Shown one piece after another: positions 13,801-17,226 of a DNA stretch of 64,000 bases. The notes under the pieces were generated by a model. The model saw only the letters and a list, made by a program, of their open reading frames with translations. It had not been told where the DNA came from and searched no databases. Source of the DNA: Tsukamurella conjunctivitidis. Its GTDB lineage: Bacteria; Actinomycetota; Actinomycetes; Mycobacteriales; Mycobacteriaceae. The stretch is from assembly GCF_007858475.1 (NCBI RefSeq), contig NZ_VIGX01000007.1, positions 124,001 to 188,000 of the forward strand, in the 5' to 3' direction. Position 1 is the stretch's first letter. Each line of letters begins with the position of its first letter. A program made the position numbers and the translations under genes.

Positions 13801-13986
13801 TCACGCCCGACGCGGCGGCCACCGTCGCCCGCGGGGCACGGGCTCCTCGTGAGCGGCGTGCGCGTCGCGCTTGTGCCGGCAGACCGCGCCGGCCGCGGCG
13901 ACCTCAGCCGGGTCGAAGCCCTCGGGCACGGGACCGTCGGCGACGAGCGCCCGGACCAGGGACTCCTGGCGTTCCCGCAGGCTCAT
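13801..13986 (-). CDS. Small SCO6045-like protein, partner of DUF692 enzyme (61 aa)
   Basis: 61 residues from ATG 13986. The body (LRERQESLVRALVADGPVPE, GFDPAEVAAAGAVCRHKRDA) resembles the short helical domain that is fused to the C-terminus of DUF692 proteins such as Streptomyces SCO6045; here it is a separate protein. Its ATG overlaps the DUF692 stop in an ATGA junction, so translation is coupled. The tail (PRGRRWPPRRA) is basic. A role as a substrate- or partner-binding subunit of the MNIO enzyme is inferred from position only. GTG 13992 is an alternative start. Confidence 0.6.
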   Translation of the reverse strand: MSLRERQESLVRALVADGPVPEGFDPAEVAAAGAVCRHKRDAHAAHEEPVPRGRRWPPRRA

Positions 13987-14849
13987 ACCCACTCCTTCCG
14001 CGCGCGCTCCGTGATCGGCGCGCAGCCGGCGGCCACGGCGATGGCGTCGAGCTCGTCGAAGAGCTCCACCGCGGGCGGGTAGCGGCCGTCGCGTTCCAGC
14101 ATGAACGGCACGTCCGCGCGCTCCCGCACCGCCGCGACCAGCGTCAGTACGCCCGCGTTCACCGGATCGGTGTGCGTGTCGTGGTAGCGACCGCCACGCT
14201 CGGAGCCCCCGGCCACGTGGCTGTAGGCGATCCGGTCGACCGGCAGTCGGGCGATCTCCTCCTGCGGGTCGCGTCCGCGGTTGAGGGCGTTCGCGTAGAC
14301 GTTCGCCACGTCGAGCACGAGCAGCGCGCCGGTGCGATTGAGCAGTTCGGTCAGGAACTCCGCCTCTGTGAACTCCTCCTCGGGCCAGCGCAGGAAGGCC
14401 GCGATGTTCTCCACCGCGAGCGGTACCGGCAGCGCGTCCTGCATCCGCGTGATGTTGCGGACCAGCACGTCGAGCGCCTCCCGGGTGCGGGGAACGGGGA
14501 GGAGGTGTCCCGCCTCGATCCCGCCGGCGCGCACGAAGGCGATGTGCTCACTGACCAGCGGCGCGCCGAAAGCCTCGGCGCACGCCGCCAGGCGGTGCAC
14601 CCGCTCCGGCTCGAGCGCGTCGACCCCGCCCAAGGAGAGCGCGACGCCGTGCGGCACCAGTGGCACACCGCGGGCGCGCAGGTCCACGAGCAGCGGATCG
14701 GTCTCCGCTCGGCCGCGACGGATCCGCACCGACTCGGCGATCACCTCGCAGAATCCGGGCCGCAGGTCGGCGATCACGCCCGCGATCTCGCGCCGCCAGC
14801 CCACGCCGAGCGGCCCCAGGGCGGGAACGGTGCGGGTCGCGGCGCTCAT
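13983..14849 (-). CDS. DUF692 family multinuclear non-heme iron oxidase (MNIO)
   Basis: 288-residue TIM-barrel protein of the MbnB/TglH/ChrH family, which use two or three iron ions and O2 to rewrite cysteine or nearby residues in peptides. All family metal ligands can be located: His67 (PHGVALSLGG), His102 (SEHIAF), Glu147 (VENIA), Asp180 (VLDVANVYANA), His211 (YSHVAGG), Asp224 and His226 (YHDTHTD), and Glu252 (MLERDG). The enzyme is therefore predicted active. The frame is open further upstream, but ATG 14849 forms an ATGA overlap with the TIGR04222 gene stop, and the family begins at GVGWRREIAGVI. The downstream 61-residue gene also overlaps by ATGA. The likely substrate is the Cys-rich tail encoded upstream, by inference. 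Confidence 0.9.
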   Translation of the reverse strand: MSAATRTVPALGPLGVGWRREIAGVIADLRPGFCEVIAESVRIRRGRAETDPLLVDLRARGVPLVPHGVALSLGGVDALEPERVHRLAACAEAFGAPLVSEHIAFVRAGGIEAGHLLPVPRTREALDVLVRNITRMQDALPVPLAVENIAAFLRWPEEEFTEAEFLTELLNRTGALLVLDVANVYANALNRGRDPQEEIARLPVDRIAYSHVAGGSERGGRYHDTHTDPVNAGVLTLVAAVRERADVPFMLERDGRYPPAVELFDELDAIAVAAGCAPITERARKEWV

Positions 14850-15745
14850 CCTCCGCACCCGCCGCAGCCGCCACAACCCCCGCAGCCGCCACCGCCACCA
14901 CCGCCGCACGACGCGCCGCCGCACGAGCCCCCACCGTCGCCGGACGATGCGGCGTCGCCGGCGAGCTCGACGCCCTCCGCGTAGGCGCCGTCGAACTGCC
15001 ACAGCGCGGCCGTGCCGAAGACGGCGACGGACAGACCGACCGCTGCTCCGCCGTAGGTGGACCAGGCGGGCCGGCGGGACGGCGCCAGGTACTCCAGGCG
15101 GGTCCGCTCGGCGCGCAGCAGGCGCTTCCCGGCGCGGGTCTCGCGGTCGATCGACCACAGGCGCGGGACCACGACGACGGCCACGATCAGGGACGGCATG
15201 AGGACGCTCGTCACCAGCGCCGCCGACTCGCGCCCCAGCACGGCCAGGATCAGGACGCCGGCCGCGCCACCGACCGCGCAGGCCGTCACGGGAGCCGCAC
15301 CCAGCCGCATCCGCCAGCGCTCCGTCGCGGATCGCAGGTAGCCCCGCGCGGCGAGGCGGTCCTCGAGCGCGTCGAGTTCGTCCGCGAGGGCGACGACGAC
15401 CGCGTTCACCGTGTACGACGTGAGGCCCGCGCAATGCGCGTGGACGGCCCGGGTGAGTCGGTCGGCGTCGGGCGGCGGGGGAGTGCCGCCCGCCCCCGGC
15501 GCCGTTTCCACCTGCGCGCCGGCCCGGAGCTGCGCGAGCGCCACGACGACCGGCGCCTGCCGGGACCGGATACAGGCGAGCTCGGTCGCCGTGAGCGGCG
15601 GATCGACGACGGTCCGCCGCCGGGATGCGGTCAGCGGCCGCCACGCCAGGGCGAGGGCGATCCCGCCGAGGAGGCAGAACAGGAACCATCGCGACCCGAT
15701 CGGGAACAGACCGTCGACGATGCTCTCGAATTCACTGCGGGACAT
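14846..15745 (-). CDS. TIGR04222-type membrane protein with Gly/Cys-rich C-terminal tail
   Basis: 299-residue membrane protein. The start at ATG 15745 is fixed by AGGAGGT seven nt upstream. One membrane helix lies near residues 19-35 (WFLFCLLGGIALALAW), two near 150-195 and one near 232-252. The middle soluble region has LTATELACIRSRQAPVVVAL and LDALEDRLAARGYLR, typical of TIGR04222. After the last helix comes a Ser/Gly linker and a tail with Cys at 275, 280, 288, 291, 294 and 297, the last four in consecutive Cys-Gly-Gly units ending the protein. The family is known for such low-complexity tails. It is the first gene of the MNIO operon; no function is established. 236 bp separate it from divergent mshC. 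Confidence 0.82.
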   Translation of the reverse strand: MSRSEFESIVDGLFPIGSRWFLFCLLGGIALALAWRPLTASRRRTVVDPPLTATELACIRSRQAPVVVALAQLRAGAQVETAPGAGGTPPPPDADRLTRAVHAHCAGLTSYTVNAVVVALADELDALEDRLAARGYLRSATERWRMRLGAAPVTACAVGGAAGVLILAVLGRESAALVTSVLMPSLIVAVVVVPRLWSIDRETRAGKRLLRAERTRLEYLAPSRRPAWSTYGGAAVGLSVAVFGTAALWQFDGAYAEGVELAGDAASSGDGGGSCGGASCGGGGGGGCGGCGGCGGCGG

Positions 15746-15981
15746 GACATTCACCTCCTGTGCGACCGGATCTTCCGAAGTGGGTACAGCATGGCGTCGG
15801 ATCGGGCCGCCCGCTAGGTTCCGCGGGAAAGAGTTTCCTGAGAGTTCCTGCGGCACAGGATCGCCGCTCGTCGGGGATCGTTCTCGCCGGTGCGCGCGGG
15901 GCGGTGCGCCTGGACGGACACCGCTCCGGCCGCGCCCCGGCCCGAAATCCACGATCGGATACGGCCGCATAGGGTGGGGGT

Positions 15982-17226
15982 ATGCGTTCCTGGCCGACCC
16001 CCACCGTCCCCAGCGTGCCCGGACCGTCGGTCCCGCTGCGCCTCTACGACACGTCCGACGCGGTGGTGCGTCCGGTGAACCCCGGCGCGGTGGCCGGGAT
16101 GTACGTCTGCGGGATCACCCCCTACGACGCGACGCACCTCGGTCATGCCGCGACGTACCTCGCGTTCGACCTGGTCAACCGGGTGCTACGGGACAACGGC
16201 CACGACGTCCACTACGTGCAGAACGTGACGGACGTCGACGATCCGCTGTTCGAGCGGGCGGATCGGGACGGCATCGACTGGCGCGATCTCGGGGCCCGCG
16301 AGACCGACCTGTTCCGCGAGGACATGGAGGCCCTGCGGGTGATCCCGCCGCGCGACTACATCGGGGCGGTCGAATCGGTGGGCGAGGTCGTCGAGTACGT
16401 CGGAAAGCTGCTGGACAACGGGTCGGCGTACGTCGTCGACGATGCCGAGTACCCGGACGTCTACTACCGTTCCGACGCCACGGAGCAGTTCGGCTACGAG
16501 TCGGGCTACGACCGCGCGACCATGGAGAAGTTCTTCGCCGAGCGCGGCGGCGACCCCGAGCGGCCCGGGAAGCGCGACAGCATCGACCCGATCCTCTGGC
16601 GCGCCGAACGCCCCGGCGAACCCGCGTGGCCCTCGCCGCAGGGGCCCGGACGTCCAGGCTGGCACATCGAATGCGCCGCGATCGCCGCGAACCGCCTCGG
16701 GGCCACCTTCGACATCCAGGGCGGCGGTAGCGATCTGATCTTCCCGCACCACGAGTACTCCGCCGCGCACGTCGAGGCCGCGACCGGCGAGCGGCGCTTC
16801 GCCCGGCACTACGTGCACGCGGCGATGATCGGACTCGACGGCGAGAAGATGTCCAAGAGCCGCGGCAACCTCGTCTTCGTCTCGAAGCTGCGCCGTTCGG
16901 GCGTCGACCCCGCCGCGATCCGCCTGGGCCTCTTCGAGGGCCACTACCGGCAGGACCGCCCCTGGTCGGACGAGGTGCTCGAGCGCGCGGTGGCGCGTCT
17001 GGACCTGTGGCGCCGCGCCTTCCAGGCGTCCTCCGCGCCGGACGGGGACGAGCTGATCGCCCGCGTCCGCCGCTACCTGGCGGATGATCTGGACACCCCG
17101 CACGCCCTCGCCGCGATCGACGCCTGGGCCGAGAAGGCCGTCACCGTCGGCGGCCCGGATGCCGGCGCGCCGGCGTCCGTGGGCGCAGCGGTCGACGCGC
17201 TGCTCGGCGTACCTGCCGCGGCCTGA
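15982..17226 (+). CDS. mshC: Cysteine--1-D-myo-inosityl 2-amino-2-deoxy-alpha-D-glucopyranoside ligase MshC
   Basis: 414-residue class I aminoacyl-tRNA-synthetase-like ligase that joins Cys to GlcN-Ins, using ATP, in mycothiol synthesis. [20 protein letters not shown] holds the HIGH-like signature and a zinc Cys, and [14 protein letters not shown] the KMSKS loop; [13 protein letters not shown] and [10 protein letters not shown] supply further zinc ligands. Length and motifs separate it from CysRS, which is longer. TAGGGT at 15970-15975 is 6 nt before ATG, predicting leaderless expression. It shows that the host makes mycothiol as its main thiol. Confidence 0.95.

Follow-up and report, generated by a model that had tools for sequence, protein, structure and literature searches.

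A three-gene operon on the minus strand of a 64,000-nucleotide stretch of Tsukamurella conjunctivitidis DNA (the window; contig NZ_VIGX01000007.1, positions 124,001 to 188,000) encodes, in this order and with overlapping reading frames, a membrane protein of the TIGR04222 family, a DUF692 enzyme of the MNIO family, and a 61-amino-acid partner-type protein. The operon probably makes a membrane-anchored protein with an enzyme-modified Cys tail, and comparison across genomes gives good reason to regard the tail of the TIGR04222 protein as the substrate of the MNIO. The gene order, the family memberships, the iron-ligand set, the conservation of tail and partner, and the co-occurrence of tail and enzyme are direct observations. 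The features of the operon are as follows.

14846..15745, minus strand: TIGR04222 membrane protein, 299 amino acids (ATG at 15745, TGA at 14846)
13983..14849, minus strand: DUF692/MNIO enzyme, 288 amino acids (ATG at 14849, TGA at 13983)
13801..13986, minus strand: partner-type protein, 61 amino acids (ATG at 13986, TGA at 13801)
14846..14849, minus strand: 4-nucleotide ATGA overlap of membrane protein stop and MNIO start
13983..13986, minus strand: 4-nucleotide ATGA overlap of MNIO stop and partner start
15754..15759, minus strand: Shine-Dalgarno sequence AGGAGG of the TIGR04222 gene, beginning 14 nucleotides before the first ATG
14849..14962, minus strand: tail-coding region (residues 262–299, six Cys, CGG end), the proposed modification site

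The order of membrane protein and enzyme is repeated at 172 junctions examined, with an NTGA overlap between the two genes at 92 of them and an NTGA overlap between MNIO and partner in 124 of the same 172 operons. Chance overlap of the genes was rejected because the same pair recurs at so many junctions. An earlier reading of this DNA from its letters alone (the sequence-only reading) had described three minus-strand genes with two ATGA joins, a strong Shine-Dalgarno sequence on the first gene, and a membrane protein with a Cys-Gly-Gly tail. Open reading frame (ORF) coordinates confirm the joins at 14849–14846 and 13986–13983, from which we infer translational coupling at both, and the AGGAGG motif and the six-Cys tail ending in CGG are likewise present. 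AGGAGG or GGAGG also lies near the start in 15 Tsukamurella and Mycolicibacterium loci compared.

The enzyme carries the MNIO iron ligands

With a match of 258.4 bits to Pfam PF05114 (DUF692; E = 8.4e-77, cut-off 25), the enzyme is a member of this family, and its nearest MNIO relatives are those of T. ocularis (90% identity) and T. pseudospumae (87%). In TglH, the iron ligands are H71, H107, E151, D184, H216, and E258, with D184, N187, D229, and H231 at the third iron (PMC10880893). All nine of these residues are matched in the window enzyme, eight through HMMER alignment to TglH (8hci) and His67 by offset and by alignment to 3bww. The residues H67, H102, E147, D180, N183, H211, D224, H226, and E252 are invariant in 21 aligned sequences, and among 218 MNIO sequences, the window enzyme included, the single departure at a ligand is one Ser at position 67. 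Both alignments uphold the eight ligand positions named in the sequence-only reading and add Asn183 to them. Against the BufB equivalog the enzyme scores 186.8 bits, below the cut-off of 310.

The TIGR04222 protein ends in a Gly/Ser/Cys tail

The membrane protein belongs to NCBIfam TIGR04222 (92.6 bits, E = 2.8e-26, cut-off 43), with the domain at about residues 53–149, between the first and second of four predicted transmembrane helices (TM1 to TM4); hydropathy over 52 sequences gives four main hydrophobic peaks. From about residue 262 to residue 299 extends a disordered, low-complexity tail of Gly, Ser, and Cys (...GSCGGASCGGGGGGGCGGCGGCGGCGG) that holds the six Cys. An AlphaFold2 model built on an alignment of 52 sequences has a mean pLDDT of 84.9 and falls below 50 at residues 262–292 and 296–299. 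The fetched set contains 156 Cys tails, of which 102 have CGG as their last residues; among their 713 tail Cys, Gly is the next residue in 575 cases and Ser in 118, and a Cys spacing of 6 is the most frequent.

Over 52 proteins, Lys plus Arg per residue reaches 0.12–0.29 in three stretches, those that follow TM1 and TM3 and the one that precedes TM2, and stays at 0–0.02 in the N-terminus and the tail. Because the basic residues are concentrated in those three stretches, the simplest reading of the topology is N-out and C-out, which would likely place the tail outside the cell; Antoine et al. (2025; PMC12452194) also predict an outside tail.

Searches for other affiliations of the membrane protein gave little. 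The best PDB profile match (E = 0.005) is not credible, and Pfam finds no DUF2282 at E up to 1, the protein being TIGR04222. Resemblances to TIGR03601 and microcin B17 are weak (E = 0.35 and 2.3), look like composition, and were set aside.

The same genome encodes a second Cys-tailed TIGR04222 protein of 303 amino acids near an elongation factor Tu-like gene (L041:1892-2803, contig C110); no MNIO lies within the 5 kb read, and modification would have to occur in trans. In one Nocardia carnea strain (L159:1075-2865) the reading frame of the TIGR04222 tail stays open through to the MNIO, which is either a natural fusion or a sequence error.

Tail cysteines track the enzyme across genomes and paralogues

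Co-occurrence was followed in an order set of 249 genomes and a class set of 296 genomes that overlaps it, with scan profiles for the fetched DNA built from the window proteins and their matches. In the order set, 107 genomes have TIGR04222 (96 over the cut-off) and 86 have MNIO; the corresponding numbers in the class set are 109 and 76. A Cys-tailed TIGR04222 protein of at least 40 bits is present in 78 of the 86 MNIO genomes of the order. Of the remaining eight, G238, G009, G073, and G086 have MNIOs of more distant kinds only, with no TIGR04222 protein read; G084 and G112 are interrupted by contig ends, the MNIO gene of G247 is broken, and G150 was not fetched.

The two sets together hold 155 genomes in which a TIGR04222 protein of at least 40 bits was read, the threshold for all genome, genus, and placement counts. 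MNIO and Cys tail are both present in 113 of these, MNIO only in 20, tail only in 3, and neither in 19. By genus the same classes number 38, 1, 2, and 8 (Fisher p = 9e-7, a value from which relatedness above the genus is not removed). In the MNIO-less genomes of the order set, TIGR04222 matches below the family cut-off are left out; paralogues of MNIO genomes were sampled in part, with G150 left out, and G503, G468, and G517 were covered in 1.5-kb flanks.

Placement relative to the enzyme shows the same trend. Beside an MNIO, which here means no more than 3 kb from it and on the sequence read (so that a neighbour can escape notice at loci with 1.5-kb flanks), 129 proteins have a Cys tail and 26 do not. 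When the MNIO lies elsewhere in the genome, 21 have a Cys tail, 28 have none, two have one Cys, and three are open-ended, and in MNIO-less genomes the numbers are 3 with a Cys tail, 18 without, and 1 open-ended. The open-ended proteins (three in MNIO genomes, one in a MNIO-less genome) are not scored as Cys-tailed, and these counts omit the named loci L133–L212 and include proteins of the named genomes reached otherwise (9 Cys-tailed, 2 open-ended). Of the 27 MNIO-adjacent proteins lacking a Cys tail (one of them below 40 bits), 15 share their genome with a Cys-tailed TIGR04222 protein of at least 40 bits.

The contrast is clearest within single genera. In genus g20, a Cys-tailed TIGR04222 protein stands beside the MNIO in 30 of 32 genomes, the other two being G084 and G112, and tail Cys occur in none of the ten paralogues read away from an MNIO. 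In G247 (L065, G247:C1:396224-396998) the MNIO is spread over three frames and the adjoining TIGR04222 protein has one tail Cys; the congener G188, with an intact MNIO, has four. Gly-rich tails whose last 50 residues contain no Cys occur in the MNIO-less genomes G140, G085, G217, and G413.

At L163, L167, and L171 (Rhodococcus erythropolis-type), the genes for MNIO and partner follow an Lrp-like gene, and two or three Cys-tailed TIGR04222 genes lie about 7 kb away. In clusters L282–L296 of genus g83, probably Streptomyces, on visual inspection, the gene before the MNIO resembles peptidyl-tRNA hydrolase (cf. adjamnio-II in PMC12452194), and some of these clusters have a further gene between the enzyme and TIGR04222.

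A second class of tailed proteins adjoins some MNIOs

Unrelated single-pass proteins with a similar tail adjoin six other MNIOs, one of them in the genome of the window. This second MNIO (L044:2808-3689) follows an aminotransferase-like gene and is itself followed by a 93-amino-acid single-pass protein with a Ser/Gly/Cys tail and by a partner-type ORF (together L044:2808-4377, contig C289). G238, which belongs to the genus of the window genome and has no TIGR04222 match, has an MNIO with two single-pass tailed proteins. Similar tailed ORFs stand beside the MNIOs of L059, L307, L325, and L331, and at L144 and L145 one lies about 2.2–2.4 kb after the MNIO of a window-type operon. Three single-pass tailed proteins match no NCBIfam family above its cut-off, and Pfam YxzE only below cut-off. 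Because these separate anchors share only the tail, the tail would be what the MNIO works on, which we regard as the strongest argument for the proposed substrate. In G516, which has no TIGR04222 match, an ORF with a Gly/His/Cys tail end adjoins an MNIO–partner fusion (L339:2616-4043) and is possibly another anchor type.

The third gene encodes a short partner-type protein

Its constant place next to the enzyme indicates that the third gene is a real partner of the MNIO. The partner domain, defined by a profile of 46 relatives, stands directly after the MNIO or is fused to it in 197 of 199 TIGR04222-associated entries, the window included (166 separate and 31 fused, all above 30 bits), and reversed and shuffled decoys give none above 12 bits among 1252 candidates each. 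The 199 entries can count one genome twice (L038/L139 and L036/L151 are possibly the same strain), and some of them also contributed to the 46-row profile. For L061 and L201, the two entries without the domain in that place, other profile scans give a match somewhere in the locus. The word "split-off", which the sequence-only reading applied to this partner, is apt in view of the 31 fusions; the window form may have arisen by splitting.

Most full-length forms have about 90–170 amino acids, and a relative of 108 amino acids is modelled as six helices (pLDDT 89.6). By alignment and length, the window partner ends after helix 2 of these six. All 24 entries of Tsukamurella and Mycolicibacterium type, at least two of which are duplicates, have a short form of about 60–76 amino acids in which VCRHKRDAH replaces the usual LLxKRAGEVA, exactly so in 22 of the 24, and whose chain has a basic Arg/Trp end. 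Short forms elsewhere are those of one Rhodococcus (L187, the same genome as L226) and of Gordonia rhizosphera (L164, 80 amino acids). The C-x-H-x4-H pattern of the short form suggests a possible metal contact.

No Pfam or NCBIfam family matches more than two of the 46 relatives at E up to 1, and the Pfam DUF2063 signature matches none of them at that threshold. When the partner profile is compared by hhalign with nine DUF2063-type proteins (one assigned by Pfam, eight being its tblastn relatives), the alignment is collinear with a probability of 48% and P = 2e-4, against 0.2% for four controls, and the partner may well be a distant DUF2063-type domain. The best PDB profile match of the partner (E = 0.25) is not credible. 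A classical DUF2063 partner elsewhere in the genome was considered and rejected, there being no match in the genome.

Proposed mechanism and alternatives

In the scheme that we propose, the MNIO, activated by its small partner, would oxidise Cys in the Gly/Ser/Cys tail of the TIGR04222 protein. Oxidation would take place in the cytosol, before or during passage of the tail across the membrane, and the finished tail would, on the predicted topology, lie outside the cell. The resulting Cys-derived group would be of thiooxazole type or a related one; thiooxazole-type chemistry on the tail is plausible, if short of probable. The likely use would be metal binding at the cell surface with copper as the first candidate, and binding of copper or another metal by the tail is put forward tentatively. 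YcaO-made thiazoles on the tail were rejected, since the genome has no YcaO match.

A joint reading of these elements, equally tentative, treats the tail as a portable substrate module on unrelated anchors (the four-pass TIGR04222 protein and single-pass proteins of 85–98 amino acids), each served by an MNIO and a minimal partner. The partner would recognise the enzyme and not the substrate, the two-helix Tsukamurella/Mycolicibacterium form with its conserved Cys and His would help to load or tune the iron centre, and the output would be a covalently modified, membrane-fixed metal-binding layer, not a released natural product.

Several observations weigh against the proposed scheme. In genus g83, 14 of the 23 genomes with MNIO and a TIGR04222 protein of at least 40 bits have no Cys-tailed one (in one of them, G312, a 21-bit match carries a Cys tail), and at ten such loci with an adjacent TIGR04222 gene no other same-strand ORF passed the Cys-tail filter; in these genomes the enzyme must act on a different target or residue, or on nothing. 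Over the order and class sets, the Cys tail is missing in 20 of 133 MNIO genomes. Conversely, 21 Cys-tailed proteins of at least 40 bits were read away from the MNIO that their genome has elsewhere, eight of them in R. erythropolis-type genomes with the MNIO about 7 kb off in the same region, and three occur in genomes without an MNIO match: that of G316, where a contig end cuts beside an MNIO fragment, and those of G182 and G225, of one genus, which have two or three Cys and match only half of the domain. At most other MNIO loci without TIGR04222 the Cys-tail filter found no such protein. In contrast to the outside tail predicted for TIGR04222, the single-pass proteins have basic residues after the helix that predict an inside tail; the predicted sides differ, and therefore one surface function is not secure. 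At 61 amino acids the window partner is too short to include an RRE, the domain with which other MNIO partners bind their substrate, as judged by length and alignment only (61 residues aligning to the first two helices). Finally, a scan confined to CsoR/RicR-like palindromes found none in 16 upstream sequences.

The sequence-only reading had proposed that the MNIO modifies this tail, called for a survey of strict co-occurrence, and named a Cys-less tail beside a retained DUF692 gene as what would refute the idea. Comparative genomics favours the modification, with the tail tracking the MNIO across genera and between paralogues and with unrelated anchors carrying a similar tail. Co-occurrence is broad in the order (78 of 86 MNIO genomes) and by genus (38 against 3 discordant) and fails to be strict: the Cys-less tail with a retained enzyme does occur in one genus, g83.

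The 14 g83 genomes also speak for the view that the MNIO modifies another, unrecognised peptide or residue, with TIGR04222 as transporter, anchor, or sensor for that target and the Cys tail acting unmodified as a thiol metal ligand or in a disulfide network. Published figures point the same way, as 490 of 1372 TIGR04222 genomes, about a third, lack an MNIO, and over a quarter of the TIGR04222 proteins have no C-proximal Cys (PMC12452194). We nevertheless consider this view rather improbable, since tail Cys track both the presence and the proximity of the MNIO and the second class of MNIO-linked proteins has only the tail in common. A tail that is modified yet remains cytosolic, where it would buffer or store metal inside the cell and the outward prediction would be wrong or irrelevant, is not very likely. 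It would suit the cytosolic tail predicted for the single-pass proteins beside MNIOs, the lack of any export sign on enzyme or partner, and the stop-less L159 frame, which would hold tail and MNIO on one side; it runs against the charge distribution over the 52 proteins and the outside prediction shared with PMC12452194. That the 61-residue protein is a decayed, functionless remnant is very improbable. Its stop after the second of six helices and the absence of any Pfam or NCBIfam family match for its group would fit decay, whereas constancy of the short form in all 24 entries, retention of VCRHKRDAH in 22, and the coupled start codon argue for a maintained gene.

Relation to known systems

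The idea that an MNIO modifies the TIGR04222 tail is not new, as Antoine et al. (PMC12452194) already list TIGR04222 proteins whose C-terminal tails are rich in Cys among the likely substrates of MNIOs, as a proposal only. Their clusters share with the window the two gene families, the proposed tail, a mostly actinomycetotal distribution, and probably a DUF2063-like partner. The difference lies in the frequency and form of the partner: that paper describes short DUF2063-like partners, with PME-type 2, defined by an absent Pfam DUF2063 signature and not requiring a full RRE, in at least 10% of clusters and many clusters apparently without a partner, whereas here the partner is present in 197 of 199 entries, fused in 31, and two-helix in the window. 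The very small adjamnio-V proteins of the same paper may be the same thing as the two-helix partner. Added here are the near-constancy of the partner, its fusions to the enzyme and its two-helix form, as well as the contrast between paralogues and the second class of tailed proteins, none of which appears in the passages of the literature consulted.

HvfB with HvfC oxidises repeated C-terminal Cys of HvfA (PMC13419390, PMC12636315), and HvfC is required for the active mixed-valent diiron state of HvfB, an artificial HvfB–HvfC fusion being highly active (PMC13419390); we see the natural MNIO–partner fusions as its counterpart. Like the window operon, the bufferins and oxazolins (BufABC, HvfABC) combine an MNIO and partner with Cys near the C-terminus, before Gly in HvfA, and an envelope destination. 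Unlike it, their precursors have a Sec signal peptide and their partners are DUF2063-type with an RRE, whereas the window has a predicted four-helix membrane protein, no DUF2063 match in the genome, and a BufB score of 187 bits against 310. Bufferin membership was rejected on the missing DUF2282 in the TIGR04222 protein and the BufB score.

In another MNIO subfamily, action on a C-terminal motif of whole proteins and lipoproteins has been shown experimentally (PMC12636315), and modification by DybH and NedBC is quick enough to compete with export (PMC13419390, PMC12636315). These DybH/ChrH-like enzymes resemble the proposed system in modifying a C-terminal motif on peptides, proteins, and lipoproteins and differ in their CPACGMG-type motif, thiohemiaminal and macrocycle chemistry, and occurrence in Bacteroidota (PMC12636315). 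TglHI has the same iron ligand set, and the N-terminal helical domain of its partner holds the enzyme; TglI, unlike the window partner, has a full helical domain and an RRE, and the substrate is a short scaffold peptide (PMC10880893). A TIGR04222 peptide in a Pseudonocardia bacteriocin cluster has been predicted to be processed as a ribosomal peptide (PMC5183585).

If the scheme is correct, many actinobacteria would apply to resident membrane proteins a chemistry that is known chiefly from small peptide products, and the MNIO helper protein that they use for it would be very small. Ready constructs for reconstituting an MNIO with its proposed substrate are available in the nearly constant partner, the natural fusions, and the two-helix form, and the g83 genomes with Cys-less proteins provide a built-in contrast.

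Upstream region and neighbouring genes

A scan for sigma-70 promoters and terminators found 0 and 0. A conserved stretch precedes the first gene (15746-15870 in the window; loci L133–L150), GAAAGTTGTGACCGGTA-like in Mycolicibacterium and AACTCTTnCCCnCGG...CTAGCGGG-like in Tsukamurella, and was matched to no known regulator. The operon is flanked by mshC (divergent, 15982-17226), an SCO1664-family gene, and a DUF3090 gene.

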